A DNA stretch of 63,592 nt, taken from assembly GCA_947177735.1 (NCBI GenBank), contig CAMWVP010000004.1, positions 1 to 63,592 on the forward strand, given 5' to 3'. Shown here in pieces: positions 5,460 through 56,582 of the stretch; position 1 is the stretch's first letter, and every line of letters starts with the position of its first letter. This DNA is from an uncultured Clostridia bacterium (GTDB taxonomy: Bacteria; Bacillota; Clostridia; Oscillospirales; Ruminococcaceae). The notes below the pieces were generated by a model. That model did no database searches. It saw nothing but the letters and a program-made list of their open reading frames with translations, and was not told the origin of the DNA. The position numbers were made by a program, and so were the translations under genes.

Positions 5460-7628
5460 TCAATTCCACCCGTATTCGTCAACATTCCCGAACAGCTTTG
5501 CGACGTTCGCGCGCAGCCCTGCGTTCTTTTCCTTTTCGAGACGCGCGTCGGTGCGTAGTATCTCCTCAGCGAGCTTGTCAATCTCGTCAAGCTGTCCCGA
5601 ATCGTCCGCGAGGTCCGCAACGCGCATCGGCGGCAGACCGCTCTGCTCACGCCCGAAAAAGTTACCCGGACCGCGCAGCTGCAAGTCGATATCCGCTATC
5701 TTGTAGCCGTCCGCTGTGTCGACCATCGCCTTAGTGCGGGCGCGGGTATATTCCGATTTGCTGTCCGTCATCAATATGCAGAAGCTCTCCGCACTGCCGC
5801 GTCCGACGCGCCCGCGCAGCTGGTGAAGCTGCGAAAGCCCGAACTGCTCGGCGTTCTCGATCAGCATAACGACCGCGTTCGGCACGTCGATACCGACCTC
5901 GATGACCGTCGTCGAGATGAGAAGCTTAAGCTTGTTGTCGCGGAAGTTGTTCATCACAGCGTCCTTATCTGTCTGCTTCATCTTCCCGTACAGCAAGCCC
6001 GTCGGTATCCCCGCGAAGTCACCGTTTGTCAGCGTGTTGTAATACTCGATAGCGCTCTTTTTCTCGGCAGCGCCCGTATCGGTCTCGCTCTGCTCGACCC
6101 TCGGGCAGACTATGAACGCCTGCCGCCCGGCGGCGATATGCTTTTTTATGAAGTTATACACACGCGCGCGGAAGCTCGAATCCACCGCATAGGTCTTGAC
6201 GGGTATACGTCCTTTCGGCATTTCGTTCAGTATCGAAACGTCCAGATCGCCGTAAACTATAAGCGCTAATGTTCGTGGAATAGGCGTAGCCGACATTGCC
6301 ATAATATGCGGAGCCACGCCTGTTGCCCTTAGCAGGGCGGCATCCGTGCCGCCCTCTTGGGGCAACTGCGCGGACATCCTGTCTGCGCCTGTTGCCCTTA
6401 GCAGGGCGGCGTCCGTGCCGCCCTCTTGGGGCAACTGCGCAGGCATCCTGCCTGCGCCCTTTTCCGCTAACGCGGAGCGCTGCCCCACGCCGAAACGATG
6501 CTGCTCGTCAACGATGACGAGCCCAAGCCGCTTTATGTTGACAGACTTTTGTATAAGCGCGTGAGTACCGATAAGCACCTCGATCTCGCCGTTTTCGGCG
6601 GCGGCGCGCATTTCCCTTTTCTCGGCGGCGGTCATACTCCCCGACAGCAGCCCGATAGTCACTCCCAGGGGCTCCAGAAAACCGCTGAACGTGTCATAGT
6701 GCTGACGGGCAAGCACTTCTGTCGGAGCCATAACGAGCGTTGTAAAGCCGTTGCAGCGCGCGAAATACGCCGCCGCTGCCGCGACCAGCGTCTTGCCCGA
6801 GCCGACGTCACCCTGTATAAGCCTGTTCATCGGATACAGTCTCTTCATATCGGCAATGCAGTCGTCAACGGCTTTGAGCTGAGCGTTGGTCGGCGTAAAC
6901 GGCAGCGAGGCATAAAAGCGGCTCAGGTCAACGTCGGTCATAACCGCACCCGATAACATTCTGCCGCAGTTCTTAAGCTGCGACAGCCCAAGCTTAAGCG
7001 TGAGCAGCTCCTCGAACACCAAGCGTTTCCGCGCCGCTTGGTACTCATCACGGCTTTTCGGGAAATGTATCTTCCGCATAGCCTCGTCCGCGCCGAGCAG
7101 CGAAAAGCGCTCGACGATATCCGCGGGGAGGTTTTCGGTGCGCTTGACTGCGGCGAGCGCCGTTTTCATATTCGAGATGAGAACATTGTTCGTAAGTCCC
7201 GATGTGAGCGGGTATTTCGGGATAAGCCCCTCCTCGTTAGGCAGCACGAACTGAGGAGAGTTTATTTGCAGATCCATAAGATCGCCGCCGATCTTGCCGT
7301 AAAAAATATACTCTTGGTTTACGTTCAGCCTGTCAAAAATATACTGCGAGTTAAAAAATACCGCCGTGATCTCGCCCTCGCCGTCCGTCAGCAGCGCCTT
7401 ATAAACCGACACCCTCGACGCATACGAGCCCGGATAGCGCTTACTTGCCACAACTGCGCGAAAGGCGCAGATATCACCTATCTCCGCCTCGCGTATAGTC
7501 TTTGTATCCGTAAAATCCACATAATCGCGCGGGTAATGCTCCGTCAGCCGCTCGACAGTTTCAATGCCGAGCCGCTTGTACAGCTCCGCCTTTTTAGGAC
7601 CCACGCCCTTGAGGTACGTTATTTCCAT
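5460..7628 (-). CDS. recG: ATP-dependent DNA helicase RecG with in-frame repeat insertion
   Basis: RecG is a branch-migrating helicase that remodels stalled replication forks and Holliday junctions. The N-terminal wedge/OB domain begins MEITYLKGVGPKKAELYKRL. It is followed by Walker A (GDVGSGKT, about residues 272-279), the DEQH box (374-377), MSATPIPRTLAL, and the helicase C domain with QLRGRVGRG. At 722 residues it exceeds the usual 680-690. The excess comes from two tandem 23-residue repeats at about residues 392-438, between the DEQH box and the SAT motif, encoded by two 69-bp DNA units (6317-6454). The reading frame is kept and all helicase motifs remain, so the protein may still function. 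The start is 6 bp after the fakA stop, so the two are coupled in one operon. Confidence 0.95.
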   Translation of the reverse strand: MEITYLKGVGPKKAELYKRLGIETVERLTEHYPRDYVDFTDTKTIREAEIGDICAFRAVVASKRYPGSYASRVSVYKALLTDGEGEITAVFFNSQYIFDRLNVNQEYIFYGKIGGDLMDLQINSPQFVLPNEEGLIPKYPLTSGLTNNVLISNMKTALAAVKRTENLPADIVERFSLLGADEAMRKIHFPKSRDEYQAARKRLVFEELLTLKLGLSQLKNCGRMLSGAVMTDVDLSRFYASLPFTPTNAQLKAVDDCIADMKRLYPMNRLIQGDVGSGKTLVAAAAAYFARCNGFTTLVMAPTEVLARQHYDTFSGFLEPLGVTIGLLSGSMTAAEKREMRAAAENGEIEVLIGTHALIQKSVNIKRLGLVIVDEQHRFGVGQRSALAEKGAGRMPAQLPQEGGTDAALLRATGADRMSAQLPQEGGTDAALLRATGVAPHIMAMSATPIPRTLALIVYGDLDVSILNEMPKGRIPVKTYAVDSSFRARVYNFIKKHIAAGRQAFIVCPRVEQSETDTGAAEKKSAIEYYNTLTNGDFAGIPTGLLYGKMKQTDKDAVMNNFRDNKLKLLISTTVIEVGIDVPNAVVMLIENAEQFGLSQLHQLRGRVGRGSAESFCILMTDSKSEYTRARTKAMVDTADGYKIADIDLQLRGPGNFFGREQSGLPPMRVADLADDSGQLDEIDKLAEEILRTDARLEKEKNAGLRANVAKLFGNVDEYGWN
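6317..6454 (-). repeat. Tandem pair of 69-bp hairpin repeats inside recG
   Basis: Two consecutive 69-bp units (6317-6385 and 6386-6454) differ at only a few bases. A third unit appears to begin at 6455 (CGCCC) and then diverges. Each unit forms a long imperfect hairpin, with GCGCCTGTTGCCC near one end pairing with GGGGCAACTGCGC near the other, around an inner GGGCGGC...GCCGCCC stem. A length of 23 codons keeps the frame open. The outer arms match the core hairpin of the intergenic elements at 28.2-35.6 kb, except for a paired change. Confidence 0.9.
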
Positions 7629-9310: not shown

Positions 9311-9375
9311 CCGATTTAATCGCGGTTTTCCCCCGCCTGCGGCGGGGAAAACCGCATAAAATAAGGCTTTAAATT
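9311..9375 (-). repeat. Dispersed GC-rich hairpin repeat, copy 1
   Basis: The segment between asp23 and fakA carries a 34-nt hairpin (9322-9355, GCGGTTTTCCCC arm with a CGCCTGCGGC centre). It is flanked by GATTTAATC on one side and ATAAAATAAGGCTTTAAATT on the other. Nearly the same sequence of about 58 bp, hairpin plus both flanks, recurs at 53200-53265. It lies inside an operon and could act as an attenuator or processing site. Confidence 0.75.
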
Positions 9376-15627: not shown

Positions 15628-15740
15628 CACAAGCTAACCGCGTATCGCTCCTTCCCCGACAAGTCCGCTCCATTGACGAAGCAGAACGTTATGGGTGGTA
15701 AAAGGGATGATTTAGGGCGTGCTGTACGGAAGCATTTTGC

Positions 15741-16003
15741 GGTCGAGCGAAAACGCCCGATACCGCAATTTCCTATGAACCGACTCGCAAAAGGCGGCTC
15801 GCCTTAAGGGGCGCGCAATATATAAGTATTGCGTGGTCAAGCGAAAAAGTCCGATCACGCAGTTTCCTATGAAACGGCTTGCCAAAGGCGGCTCGCCTTA
15901 AGGGGCGCGCAATATATAAGTATTGCGTGGTCGAGCGAAAACGCCCGATCGCGCAATTTCCTATGAAACGGCTTGCCAAAGGCGGCTCGCCTCGGGGGCA
16001 AAT
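15741..16003 (+). repeat. 94-bp direct tandem repeat, three units
   Basis: Units start at 15741, 15835 and 15929, an exact 94-bp period. The third is cut short where it runs into the ribosome-binding site of the PnuC-like gene. Each unit holds a hairpin built on GGTCGAGCGAAAACGCCCGA and TTGCGTGG/CCGATCGCGCAA, followed by a CGGCTTGCCAAAGGCGGCTC segment. The same hairpin head occurs singly at 29667-29702. The rest of the 378-bp gap between the flanking genes shows nothing else. Confidence 0.85.
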
Positions 16004-18032: not shown

Positions 18033-19163
18033 ATGGAAAAATACTTCGGCGAAAGCACTCCCAAGCTCGGCTTCGGTCTTATGCGTCTGCCAAAGCAGGC
18101 GGGCGGCAAGATCGACATCGAACATACCAAGAAAATGGTCGATATGTTTATGCAGGCAGGGCTCACCTACTACGACACCGCTTACGTCTATGACAACGGC
18201 GATTCCGAGCTCGCTGCCAAGGCGGCTCTTGTCGACCGCTATCCCCGCGAGAGCTTCACGCTCGCCACCAAGCTCAACGCGTGGCTCGGCGAACCCGACG
18301 AGAAAGCCGCAAAGCGGCAGCTGTATACCAGTCTCGAGCGCACGGGCGCGGGATATTTCGACTACTACCTGCTTCACGCCCTGCAAACCACCAATCGCAA
18401 AAAATACGACGAATACGGTATCTGGGATTTCGTCAAGGAGCAGAAAGCCAAAGGTCTCATCAAGCACTGGGGCTTTTCGTTCCACGCCGGTCCCGATATG
18501 CTCGACGAGCTGCTGACCGAGCACCCCGACGCGGAATTCGTCCAGCTCCAGCTCAACTACGCCGATTGGGAGGATCCCGGCATCGCTTCGCGCGCCAACT
18601 ATGAAGTCGCCCGCAAGCACGGCAAGTCCATTATCGTAATGGAGCCCGTCAAGGGCGGCGCTCTCGCGAACCCGCCGCAGCCGGTCAAGGACGTTTTCGC
18701 CGCCGCGGACAAAAACGCTTCCTTCGCCTCGTGGGCGATACGCTATGTAGCGTCGCTTGACGGCATCATCACCGTGCTTTCGGGTATGTCGAACGTCGAG
18801 CAGATGGCCGATAATCTGTCGTACATGAAGGATTTCAAGCCGCTTGATGAGCGCGAACAGGAGGTCATAAAGGCTGCTCGGGAGGCTCTCGGCAAGGTGA
18901 AGTCTATCGCCTGCACCGGCTGCCACTACTGTACGGACGGCTGCCCGCAGAACATTCCTATCCCCGAGATCTTCGCCGCGCGCAACAAGCAGCTCGTCTG
19001 GGGTCAGATCGAGCGCGGCAATGGCGACTACGCTAACGCGACCGCAAGCCGCGGAAAGGCTTCCGACTGTATAGCCTGCGGGCAATGCGAGAGCGCCTGC
19101 CCGCAGCAGCTCAAGGTCATTGACCTGCTCAGTGAGTGTTCCGAAACTTTAGAGAAACGCTGA
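18033..19163 (+). CDS. Aldo/keto reductase with C-terminal 2x[4Fe-4S] ferredoxin domain
   Basis: This 376-residue oxidoreductase has the aldo/keto reductase barrel (GFGLMRLP, YYDTAYVYDNGDSE, LATKL, LLHALQ). It carries an appended ferredoxin-like tail with two cysteine clusters, CTGCHYCTDGCP from about residue 294 and CIACGQCESACP from about 346. Such fused enzymes are common in anaerobic Firmicutes and probably exchange electrons between NAD(P)H and iron-sulfur partners; the substrate is unknown. It has a strong AGGAGGA ribosome-binding site. Its stop codon lies within the left inverted repeat of a short element (19149-19255). Confidence 0.9.
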   Translation: MEKYFGESTPKLGFGLMRLPKQAGGKIDIEHTKKMVDMFMQAGLTYYDTAYVYDNGDSELAAKAALVDRYPRESFTLATKLNAWLGEPDEKAAKRQLYTSLERTGAGYFDYYLLHALQTTNRKKYDEYGIWDFVKEQKAKGLIKHWGFSFHAGPDMLDELLTEHPDAEFVQLQLNYADWEDPGIASRANYEVARKHGKSIIVMEPVKGGALANPPQPVKDVFAAADKNASFASWAIRYVASLDGIITVLSGMSNVEQMADNLSYMKDFKPLDEREQEVIKAAREALGKVKSIACTGCHYCTDGCPQNIPIPEIFAARNKQLVWGQIERGNGDYANATASRGKASDCIACGQCESACPQQLKVIDLLSECSETLEKR

Positions 19164-19255
19164 TTTAATCCTTTTTTCTGCTTGCGTGGCACGGTTTTAT
19201 CGGCTTTTCCCCGCCTCCGGTGGGGAAAGTTCGTTTAATCAGCGGCTCCTTAGAG
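19149..19255. repeat. TIR-bounded short element, copy near the aldo/keto reductase
   Basis: Imperfect inverted ends (CGCTGATTTAATC and GTTTAATCAGCG) enclose a CTTTTCCCCGCCTCCGGTGGGG hairpin core split around 19204-19227. Elements with the same ends and core occur at 56479-56582, and with the same ends at 47861-48040. The left end overlaps the last four codons and the TGA of the aldo/keto reductase gene. Confidence 0.75.
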
Positions 19256-27083: not shown

Positions 27084-28229
27084 ATGGATCTTAGTGAAAT
27101 ACGAAAGAAGATAGACGCGATAGACGACAAGATGCTGGATCTGTTTCTGGAGCGCATGGAGCTGGCGACCGACGTCGCAAAGTATAAGGCTGCAAATAAT
27201 ATGGTGGTTTTCCAGCACGACCGCGAAAAGTTCATAATCGACAATGTTAAGGAGAATTCCCCCGAGGAGCTCCGAAAGAGCGCGGCGTTCCTGTTTATGA
27301 ACATTATGGATATCTCCAAAGTGTCGCAGATCAACGCGATAACGCCCGATATCGAGATACAATGCACGAATAAGGCTAAGGAGCGCCCCTCCGTTGCCGC
27401 TCAGGGGATAGAGGGCTCATACGGTCACGCGGCGGCGCGGCAGCTGTTCGACAGCGGCAGCATCGGTTTCTACGCGGCGTTCCACGAGGTGTTTGAGGCG
27501 GTCGAGAACGGCGATGTAGACTACGGCGTGATCCCCGTCGAGAACAGCACGGCGGGCGAGGTGACGGCGAATATGGAGCTGCTCGAGCGGCATAACGTCT
27601 ACATCTGCCGCACCACGACGGTGGAGTGCGCGCACGTTCTCGCGGCGCGCAAGGGCGTTGCCGAAGAGGACATCAAGATACTTTTCGGGCACGAGCAGGC
27701 TATCCGCCAGTGCGAGGAATACATAGAGGCTCACGAGCCGCTGACGGTCATTCCCTACCACAACAACGCCGCCGCCGCGAAGATGGTCGCGGAAAATCCG
27801 AGCATGGAACTCGGGTGTATATGCTCGGAGGAGTGCGCGGAAATGCACGGTCTGAGCGTTATCAGAAAGCAGATCGCCTCCGATCCGAACAACTGCACGC
27901 GGTTCATATGCATTTCGAAAAACGTCGAGGTGTACGACGGCGCGGACACCGTGGCGGTATCGCTGTCGATACCGAATATCTCCGGCGCGCTGTACAGACT
28001 GCTGACCAAGTTCGCGGTCAACGGGCTGTCGATGTCGAAAATACAGTCCAAGCCGCTGCCCGTTGACGTGAAGAAGCGTTTTCCGGACGATTATATGTTC
28101 TACATCGAGTTCAACGGCAGCCTTGCCGAGCCGAAGATACGCAAGCTCCTGAAAAATTTCGAAGACGAGCTGAACTATTTCAAATTTCACGGCAACTTCA
28201 TAAGGGCGCCTCATAAAAACCTTGTTTGA
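27084..28229 (+). CDS. pheA: Bifunctional chorismate mutase/prephenate dehydratase
   Basis: This enzyme converts chorismate to phenylpyruvate in phenylalanine synthesis. Residues 1-85 are an AroQ-type chorismate mutase (IRKKIDAIDDKMLDLFLERM), about 110-290 the prephenate dehydratase (EGSYGHAAARQLF, GVIPVENSTAGEVTANMELL), and about 300-375 an ACT domain (ISGALYRLLTKFAVNGLSMS, QSKPLP in place of ESRP) for phenylalanine feedback. The length of 381 is normal. The final codons (HKNLV and the TGA) are supplied by the end of an inserted short element at 28210-28444, so the native C-terminus may have been altered. It precedes ispD and ispF. Confidence 0.93.
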   Translation: MDLSEIRKKIDAIDDKMLDLFLERMELATDVAKYKAANNMVVFQHDREKFIIDNVKENSPEELRKSAAFLFMNIMDISKVSQINAITPDIEIQCTNKAKERPSVAAQGIEGSYGHAAARQLFDSGSIGFYAAFHEVFEAVENGDVDYGVIPVENSTAGEVTANMELLERHNVYICRTTTVECAHVLAARKGVAEEDIKILFGHEQAIRQCEEYIEAHEPLTVIPYHNNAAAAKMVAENPSMELGCICSEECAEMHGLSVIRKQIASDPNNCTRFICISKNVEVYDGADTVAVSLSIPNISGALYRLLTKFAVNGLSMSKIQSKPLPVDVKKRFPDDYMFYIEFNGSLAEPKIRKLLKNFEDELNYFKFHGNFIRAPHKNLV

Positions 28230-28444
28230 GGGAAAATCGACATAGCCGCATTATGCGCCTGTTGTCTTTGACAACTGCGCAAAACGCTGCCGTCTGCTAC
28301 GTCAAACCTCAGAGTGACCGCTTGCGGTCATTCGCGCAAGGCATACAGCCTTGCTTCGTCGGCTTTAGCGTTTTGCGCAAAGCGCATAATGCGTGCAGCC
28401 GACGTACTCTGCCGATTTTCCCTTTTCAAACCGGTTTTTAGAGG
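28210..28444 (+). mobile_element. MITE-like element, copy A
   Basis: This 235-bp element has terminal inverted repeats built on TAAAAACC (left TAAAAACCTTGTTTGAGG; right CTTTTCAAACCGGTTTTTA). It is nearly identical, in opposite orientation, to copy B at 35393-35606, apart from an extra segment of about 21 bp around GTGACCGCTTGCGGTCA. It contains the shared core hairpin GCGCCTGTTGTC/GACAACTGCGC (28255-28280) and an inverted GCGCATAATGCG further in. It supplies the end of pheA and separates pheA from ispD. Confidence 0.85.
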
Positions 28445-28463
28445 TACCCAAAAGATAACCGAG

Positions 28464-29641: not shown

Positions 29642-29666
29642 ATTTTTTTATTACGTATCATAGAGA

Positions 29667-29710
29667 ATTGCGTGGTTGAACGTTTTCGCTCGACCACGCA
29701 ATATTTCTAT
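29667..29710 (+). terminator. Terminator-like hairpin after ispF
   Basis: A long stem (29667-29682 with 29687-29702, ATTGCGTGGTTGAACG arm) with a TTTT loop is followed by ATTTCTAT. Its stem is the same TTGCGTGGTCGAGCG hairpin that heads each 94-bp unit at 15.7-16.0 kb, so it may be a repeat recruited as a terminator. Confidence 0.65.
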
Positions 29711-29744
29711 ATCACACGTTTCTTAACGGTTCAGCCTTTTGTTA

Positions 29745-33816: not shown

Positions 33817-34038
33817 GAGCCTGTTCAGAACCTCTCCGTATGCGTCTTTCTTGCAGCTTTTGCATATTTCTTCGTTGTTTTTTCTTGAGCGTTTTGCGCA
33901 GTTGTCCTAAAGACAACAGCGCATAATGCGTACATAAAGTACACGCATTATGCCTTCGGCAAAACGCTGCGAAAAAACGCCTCGAAATCCGCAAAATCTG
34001 CTACGAAATCCGCGTACGTCGAGATTCTGAACAGGCTC
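33817..34038. mobile_element. TIR-bounded element with GAGCCTGTTCAGAA ends
   Basis: This 222-bp element runs from GAGCCTGTTCAGAACCTC to GAGATTCTGAACAGGCTC. It contains the core hairpin GCGCAGTTGTCCTAAAGACA and onward (33896-33922), flanked by GCGTTTTGCGCA and GCATAATGCG segments shared with copies A and B, but its outer ends are unrelated to theirs. It fills the gap between the Rsm22-like and Sfp-type genes. Confidence 0.8.
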
Positions 34039-34700: not shown

Positions 34701-34740
34701 CGTGGTGTCGAGCGTGAGCGCCCGACACCACGGTTTTATA
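34701..34740 (+). terminator. Intrinsic terminator after the Sfp-type gene
   Basis: A 14-bp imperfect stem (34701-34714 with 34719-34732, CGTGGTGTCGAGCG arm) with a TGAG loop is followed by GTTTTATA. The stem resembles the TTGCGTGGTCGAGCG hairpins at 15.8 and 29.7 kb. Confidence 0.78.
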
Positions 34741-34960
34741 CTAATTGCCAATCGAAGTATAGACAAGATTTGCGGCAAGACCGCGCCTGGCGCAAGGACG
34801 CATTATGCGCCTGTTGTCTTTAGGACAACTGCGCAAAACGCTGCGACGCAGGCGTACTGTACGCATTATGCCTTTGGCAAAACGCTCCAAGGAGATTTGA
34901 CGCGGCGATAGGTGTGGGTTTGACGCAAAGATGTCTATACGTAGATTGACAATTAGTATT
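34738..34960. mobile_element. TIR-bounded element with CTAATTG ends
   Basis: This 223-bp element has inverted ends ATACTAATTGCCAATC and GATTGACAATTAGTATT, and inner AGTATAGACA/TGTCTATAC repeats. Its core hairpin (34807-34834) and GCATTATGCG/GCAAAACGCT neighbours are shared with the elements at 28.2, 33.8 and 35.4 kb, although the ends differ. It fills the space between the convergent Sfp-type and mazF genes. Confidence 0.8.
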
Positions 34961-35303: not shown

Positions 35304-35392
35304 TATAACCCTTCCTTTCGTTATTGTCGGCAGAAGTCTGCCTTGCCTGTCGAGAATATTATTGACCTTGATATTGTGATTATTCAAGGGCA

Positions 35393-35606
35393 TCTCTAAA
35401 AACCGGTTTGAAAAGGTAAAATTGGCATAGCATGTCGGCTGCACGCATTATGCGCTATGCGCAAAACGCTGAAAGCCGACGAAGCAAGGCTGTATGCCTT
35501 GCGAGAAGGTTTGACGACGCAGACGGCAGCTTTTTGCGCAGTTGTCAAAGACAACAGGCGCATAATGCGGCTATGCCGATTTTGCCTCAAACAAGGTTTT
35601 TAGAGA
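35393..35606 (-). mobile_element. MITE-like element, copy B
   Basis: This 214-bp element is an inverted near-identical copy of 28210-28444. Its ends are CTCTAAAAACCGGTTTGAAA and CTCAAACAAGGTTTTTAGAG. The core hairpin lies at 35536-35561. It occupies most of the 376-bp gap between mazF and the dGTPase gene, upstream of both. Confidence 0.85.
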
Positions 35607-56478: not shown

Positions 56479-56582
56479 TATGGAACCACTGATTAAACGG
56501 CTTTTCCCCGCCTCCGGCGGGGAAAAGCCGATAAAACCGTGCCCCGTAAGCTGAAAAACGGATTAAATCAGCGTTTCCTTAG
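56479..56582. mobile_element. TIR-bounded element with GC-hairpin core
   Basis: This 104-bp element has ends GGAACCACTGATTAAACGG and GGATTAAATCAGCGTTTCC, and core hairpin CTTTTCCCCGCC/GGCGGGGAAAAG (56501-56527), as in the element at 19149-19255. It lies in the 230-bp gap upstream of the next gene. Confidence 0.78.

Follow-up and report, generated by a model that had tools for sequence, protein, structure and literature searches.

The window, a stretch of 63,592 nucleotides from the genome denoted G000, carries on the minus strand at 5460–7628 a recG gene, recognised as an open reading frame with matches to RecG family models and to the solved structure PDB 1gm5. The encoded ATP-dependent DNA helicase has 722 residues and includes an in-frame insert of 46. 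As an earlier note on this DNA had described, the insert lies between the DEQH and SAT motifs and is made of two tandem 69-nt units; the copies are 94% identical at a spacing of 69, and a single open frame runs through both. The NCBIfam model TIGR00643 covers residues 20–684, and thus both sides of the insert. The note had set the insert at 6317–6454, which is off by one base: the codons fill 6318–6455 on the minus strand, corresponding to residues 392–437.

The unit that comes first in gene order (AGRMPAQLPQEGGTDAALLRATG; 23 codons) occupies 6387–6455 on the minus strand, and the second (ADRMSAQLPQEGGTDAALLRATG; 23 codons) occupies 6318–6386 on the same strand. Both were delimited as direct repeats, and they score 94.2 bits (at 6387–6457) and 81.4 bits, respectively, against a covariance model of the unit, R1. 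Each contains an inner hairpin (B), placed from the direct repeat at 6403–6424 in the first unit and at 6334–6355 in the second, and a single hairpin (C). The latter spans 6437–6457 in the first unit (GCGCAGGCATCCTGCCTGCGC), where the last two bases belong to the host flank, and 6368–6388 in the second (GCGCGGACATCCTGTCTGCGC), as located by folding. Folded as DNA, the stretch 6318–6388 reaches −29.8 kcal/mol against a shuffle mean of −13.3 kcal/mol (z −7.45), and none of 200 shuffles folds as well.

The place of the insert corresponds, in the Thermotoga maritima RecG structure (1gm5), to a short stretch between residues 514 and 519. An AlphaFold2 model of the window RecG, built on 31 RecGs (mean pLDDT 77.9, pTM 0.61), sets the insert between a helix (residues 381–392) and a strand (441–446). 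Residues 393–436 are modelled as coil with pLDDT below 50, mostly near 25, from which the insert is predicted to form a disordered loop. Nothing points to a benefit for RecG, and the insert is most likely neutral or slightly harmful selfish DNA.

A RecG-like match was returned for all 61 genomes searched, with helicases such as Mfd matching too, and the recG site was read in the 29 relatives' loci that were fetched, best first. In the alignment of RecG from these relatives, proposed earlier as a check, 28 of the 29 have no insert of any kind at the site. The sole exception is G027, which carries one related unit of approximately 22 residues at the same codon as in G000, with a different sequence. 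At the DNA level, the gap between recG of G000 and the insert-free gene of G020 measures 138 bp. The insert is likewise absent from all 23 loci that cover the motifs among 24 taken from a named genome collection, several of which represent the same species as genomes of the first set while others are distant. In the RecG tree, G000 groups with the insert-free G019 and G020 (support 100/99), and G027 falls in another clade (100/100) with the insert-free G011, G023 and G025. Since the two carriers sit in separate clades that both have insert-free members, the simplest reading of the sequences is that the inserts of G000 and G027 are probably two independent insertions at one codon; alternatively, the insert may have been lost in other lineages.

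Architecture of the unit and other repeats in the window

The unit is composed of an outer stem that encloses a hairpin, followed by a second hairpin, and all three stems covary. The G027 insert and other copies have different stem sequences arranged on the same plan. In a MAFFT alignment of nine sequences, standard pairs make up 98.9% of the lettered cells, and changes on both sides are seen in 13 of 22 pairs, compared with a shuffle mean of 6.9 and with 1–4 for slid structures. Among 53 distinct rows fitted to R1 the corresponding values are 98.1% and 20 of 22 pairs, and among 90 distinct rows 97.4% and 21 of 22, both alignments being biased towards the model by the fitting. On the coding strand the loops read CAGGATG, CACGATG or CACGGATG, and two inner loops, approximately CAAAAG and AACAAAG, appear conserved by eye. 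Unit lengths are mostly 64–72, and the most frequent 3' end is A-G-G-C.

Rfam gave no matches within the window, and in eight element loci there was no match over the unit at the gathering score, the best overlap, below threshold, being CcsR1 (24.1 bits; cut-off 65.3). When the genome was searched at the protein level with the 46-residue insert, only the insert itself gave a convincing E-value. Because the stems vary, and with them the peptide, other copies escaped this search, and a structure model was needed. R1 was trained on nine units, six of them in genes, so that the share of copies found in genes is a biased estimate.

The earlier note had also linked the RecG units to intergenic elements near 28.3, 33.9, 34.8 and 35.5 kb. 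The outer arms do match those of the intergenic hairpins, with the correction that the lower-coordinate unit has A (6316), not G, as its outermost arm base. The one differing arm position was read correctly as a change from T-A to C-G, compensated on both sides. Apart from the shared outer arms, the intergenic hairpins are built on a different plan, mostly GCATTAT-[stem-loop]-AAAACGC. They lie at 28248–28287 (plus strand; GCATTAT...AAAACGC; 11.8 bits with R1, at 28257–28337), 33889–33929 (minus strand; one arm base fewer), 34800–34841 (plus strand; 13.4 bits) and 35536–35568 (minus strand; 14.2 bits). The last is contained in an inverted copy of the 28.2–28.45 kb element, and its AAAACGC side is changed. 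Three of them thus score 11.8–14.2 bits, compared with 81–94 bits for the RecG units, and the 33.9-kb hairpin is not listed by R1 at E≤10 in the window. The scores and the differing plan rule out these four intergenic elements as full copies.

The second kind of hairpin, GCATTAT-[stem-loop]-AAAACGC, is seen at 28248–28287, 28392, 33889–33945, 34800–34863 and 35445. Its inner stem-loops are exchangeable (GCCTTCGGC, GCGCTATGCGC, CCGCTTCGCGG or a long GCGCCTGTTGTC hairpin); 32 distinct inner sequences occur in the window and the fetched loci taken together, a few of them stemless. A MITE-like element of about 230 bp is present as inverted copies at 28214–28449 and 35388–35602, which are 90–97% complementary in three pieces, and further copies are apparent by eye at 33817–34038 and approximately 34740–34960. 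Elsewhere in the window, a repeat stands three times in tandem at 15715–15992, spaced by 94 bp; the copies are 78–82% identical to the first, and an inverted relative lies at 29654–29726. Strong hairpins around CCCCGCC-TCC-GGCGGGG lie within longer repeats at 9323, 19201, 53224 and 56498; of these longer repeats, 19154–19252 and 56479–56577 are 86% complementary.

Distribution, host genes and empty sites

Other genomic copies of the unit, for which the earlier note had suggested a search, are present both within and between genes. G000 has 29 R1 matches at E≤1, of which the 22 at E≤1e-5 were counted. At least eight of the 22 lie in genes: two in recG, two in a hydrolase gene, and one each in metK, an ABC transporter gene, glmS and a RumA-like methylase gene, the last being antisense and supported solely by the domains to either side. 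Within the genus, R1 matches at E≤1e-4 occur in 36 of 43 genomes; searches of more than 40 genomes were run with stricter filters, and the E-values of R1 are rough. The richest is G017, with 41 copies at E≤1e-4 and 46 at E≤0.01. Beyond the genus, R1 found nothing in 24 genomes from other families. When 295 genomes were drawn evenly across the order, three proved positive, namely G000 itself, G109 (10 copies) and G150 (one copy), the latter two from a second, sister genus within the family. Most of the genomes are drafts, and those named within the genus are metagenome assemblies; the carrier Clostridia have genomes of about 1.8–3.5 Mb. In G003 three element units stand in tandem at one place (L247:1956–2157). 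By eye, loci L269 and L270 of G109 show the hairpins in longer arrays of alternating units.

From the relatives 100 stretches were fetched, and R1 was run on 55 loci (58 hits at E≤0.001) and 85 loci (98 hits at E≤0.0001). These 156 hits were reduced to 150 by removing identical contexts, to 136 usable ones, and to 126 distinct ones for a table of flanks. Many of the 150 contexts have no long spanning open reading frame and were counted as intergenic or undecided; 43 spanning frames were scanned with Pfam or NCBIfam. Under a strict definition, in which a family match or an ortholog alignment is present on both sides of the unit, 17 in-frame insertion events are co-directional with the host gene and three are antisense. 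The co-directional events are in recG (G000), recG (G027), lysA, purL, metK, glmS, purD, mobL, a PhoR/PnpS-like kinase gene (in the ATPase domain), two ABC transporter genes, three hydrolase sites, a gene for a V-type ATPase subunit, virB4 (one site, in G018 and G031) and ribU (one site, in G062 and G017, in tandem in G062). The antisense events affect an FAD-binding oxidoreductase gene, the gene for a DUF3987 protein and a single C5-methylase site shared by G017 and G029. Upstream of the insert-carrying metK, at L095:901–1054, lies a SAM riboswitch (RF00162, 46 bits). A wider count that admits one-sided or neighbouring-domain support adds SecA, ApbE, AlbA, AstE, a helicase-like protein, RumA and an N6-methylase, and gives 22 co-directional against five antisense events; the antisense N6-methylase of G003 (L248) is placed by its match to L220, and other frames were too weakly supported.

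Several sites are polymorphic. In the hydrolase gene, two sites are filled in G000 and empty in G029, and one is filled in G029 and empty in G000. An empty site is seen for purL in G017 and for metK in G032, and all five gaps are exactly 69 bp. The ABC transporter genes of G000 and G063 are reciprocally filled at the protein level, where the DNA alignment is poor. In the empty gene the junction reads GGC and then G at the hydrolase, recG, purL and metK sites, gap placement being ambiguous by a few bases. The GGC found on both sides of a unit may be a 3-bp target-site duplication or the unit's own end. When all 126 flanks are taken together, those of intergenic copies among them, the left flank shows no more than a weak preference.

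The LysA unit is 94–96% identical to two units elsewhere, and the 30-bp flanks agree in 7–9 bases; in general, units that are 90–97% identical have both flanks at chance level. The near identity of such copies within differing flanks defines sharp boundaries of the unit. Together with the reciprocal 69-bp empty sites, these sequence comparisons support mobility of the element, and they uphold the earlier proposal that a structural, probably mobile element also resides inside a gene. Judged by eye, several larger inverted-repeat elements contain many of the intergenic copies, and part of the copy number may therefore be due to hitch-hiking. It is very likely, in our view, that the RecG insert consists of a short non-autonomous mobile element, about 69 bp long and a member of a genus-wide family, present here in two tandem copies.

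Strand, reading frame and candidate mechanisms

The excess of co-directional events is significant in both counts (p 0.0026 for 17 versus 3; p 0.0015 for 22 versus 5). Stop codons are ruled out as its cause, as the frames are about equally open on both strands: in 95, 100 and 110 of 135 units for the three sense frames, and in 104, 102 and 116 for the antisense frames. The sense peptides are polar, with a mean GRAVY of about −1.1, and the antisense peptides are hydrophobic (about +0.3 to +0.4) and richer in Cys. Selection on the peptide is thus likely to act as the filter for strand.

One reading frame also predominates. In the wider list, the last base of the unit is at codon position 3 in 21 of 24 co-directional units and in 19 of 22 events. 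In 13 open reading frames, mostly insert-bearing themselves, GGC is in the Gly frame in 54% of cases; against this baseline, 19 of 22 in a single phase (p 0.0017) would be unlikely from the target alone. Because all three sense frames are polar, hydropathy alone fails to account for the choice among them. We infer that peptide selection and the GGC target act together to set the frame preference.

Movement of the element by an IS200/IS605-type HUH (Y1) transposase, in the way that REP elements are associated with RAYT, appears unlikely. HUH (Y1) chemistry involves recognition of a folded single strand and leaves no clear duplication, and a GGC at both the host side and the unit end, with no clear duplication, would fit it. 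The transposase domain PF01797, however, was found in nine of the 43 genus genomes and not in G000, G017 (41–46 copies) or G064 (14 copies), and over 126 flanks the unit ends have neither GTAG nor CGTC. For a possible autonomous version, the open reading frames between neighbouring units were inspected in five loci; their first 70 residues contain nothing transposase-like by eye.

We also consider it quite improbable that the unit is kept mainly as a structured RNA whose copies serve as mobile CsrA sites or decoys. CsrA-binding RNA presents GGA in hairpin loops, and the transcript loops CAGGAUG or CACGGAUG are ones that we take to resemble CsrA-binding hairpins. The conserved loops, strand-specific A-rich inner loops and covarying stems would fit an RNA role, as would the mostly co-directional orientation of copies in genes (17 versus 3, p 0.0026), but that bias is also compatible with selection against hydrophobic, Cys-rich antisense peptides. 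Many loops read CACGATG, which lacks GGA, and in some units GGA is absent from both loops. Of the 43 genus genomes 38 have CsrA, and the CsrA-less G002, G005, G007 and G010 (96–99% complete) are without the element, but these four form one clade. Moreover, G023, G030 and G035 have CsrA and no element, and G025 (75% complete) has elements and no CsrA hit. Both the loops that lack GGA and the genomes in which CsrA and the element do not go together weaken this reading.

Retro-insertion of an RNA copy by a reverse transcriptase seems very doubtful. The RNA-like covariation and the strand-specific conservation of single-stranded parts would be in keeping with it, and a reverse transcriptase domain occurs in 17 of the 43 genus genomes, G000 and G017 included. 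Against this, RVT_1 was not found in G064 (95% complete, 14 copies), G036 (89%, 12 copies) or G011 (86%, 12 copies). As resident mobilizers, the Y1 transposase and the reverse transcriptase are both unsupported, each being missing from some copy-rich genomes. That the residues are an ordinary lineage-specific extension of RecG, grown by tandem duplication and devoid of mobility, is extremely improbable: the second of the two RecG units, 94% identical neighbours, could be a local duplication, but the unit also occurs in numerous other, unrelated genes and in intergenic positions, and empty sites exist; these copies elsewhere refute such an origin for the first RecG unit.

For a short mobile element, a plausible sequence of events can be outlined. 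An enzyme acting in trans would recognise the folded strand and join a copy to the host at GGC. As the inserted end would recreate GGC, a second unit could join behind the first, which would explain the tandem pairs in RecG and RibU, although local duplication would explain them as well. Within genes, copies would persist only where their length is a multiple of three and their peptide polar and flexible, and a peptide of the type GGTDAAQ..ATGG would be tolerated in a surface loop. Tentatively, and at rather low confidence, the element could represent an undescribed class of mobile, structure-encoded elements in which stems drift freely by compensation, loops and inner loops stay fixed and an enzyme joins the folded strand at GGC, mostly in the Gly phase. 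It could conceivably amount to a natural and recurrent protein linker-insertion system that reached one recG codon separately in two clades, and an RNA-binding partner, for instance CsrA, might be involved.

Comparison with known elements

The closest resemblance in behaviour is to the palindromic elements of Rickettsia (RPE) and Wolbachia, which passages of PMC2229807 and PMC3767692 describe as short, present between genes and in frame in conserved genes, solvent-exposed, and encoding a tolerated peptide. The Clostridia element likewise has intergenic copies and, judged from sequence, enters conserved genes in frame without destroying them (17 + 3 events). The parallel with Rickettsia drawn in the earlier note is apt in this respect. 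The element differs in its two hairpins, its occurrence in Oscillospiraceae-like Clostridia, its mostly single phase and the GGC at its junction. Since it measures about 69 bp, compared with about 100–150 bp for the RPEs of Rickettsia, and the likeness, drawn from published descriptions, is one of behaviour alone, we describe it as RPE-like and claim no membership of that family.

Intragenic REP elements, marked by GTAG/CGTC, are described in parts of PMC3733652 as lying in open reading frames as dimers or groups and coding for 20–30 amino acids, many of them in replication or repair genes, including recB, where two Xanthomonas species carry them at nearly the same position. Going by that description, the common ground is a small hairpin repeat, some copies of which are inside open reading frames. 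Unlike REPs, the Clostridia element has no GTAG/CGTC tag at its ends, and no Y1 transposase was found in G000, G017 and G064. Palindromic repeats with coding potential in Methanocaldococcus jannaschii are cited together with RPEs in a portion of PMC2996958; they are archaeal and are compared here by description alone. The same source portrays PARCELs as palindromic DNA coding repeats of about 25 amino acids. From what it relates, these are tandem amphipathic domains (DUF285) in genes for membrane proteins or proteins of unknown function, whereas the Clostridia element occurs as one or two units in unrelated housekeeping proteins; a Pfam scan of 40 proteins listed no DUF285-type match. Coding MITEs (ERIC, YPAL and similar) are presented in sections of PMC2229807 as small non-autonomous repeats that can fuse in frame. 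Unlike in a MITE, the ends of the Clostridia unit are not inverted repeats of each other, as its start lies in a hairpin of its own and its end a few bases beyond another stem; it also sits within several larger inverted-repeat elements.

A literature search over titles and the beginnings of abstracts returned no description of a comparable element from Clostridia. Rickettsia and Wolbachia are the best-known hosts of in-frame palindromic elements, and the reduced genomes of an intracellular life might account for the tolerance of them there. The family of in-frame elements described here lies in Clostridia, with many core enzymes as hosts and naturally polymorphic sites. The analysis extends the earlier note from the RecG locus to a two-hairpin, covarying, genus-wide palindromic element in many housekeeping genes, apparently mobile and repeatedly entering core genes in frame. 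For annotators and structure predictors it serves as a warning that residues of this kind are mobile DNA and not domains. It also makes testable both how such elements move and what effect in-frame insertions of about 23 residues have on essential enzymes.
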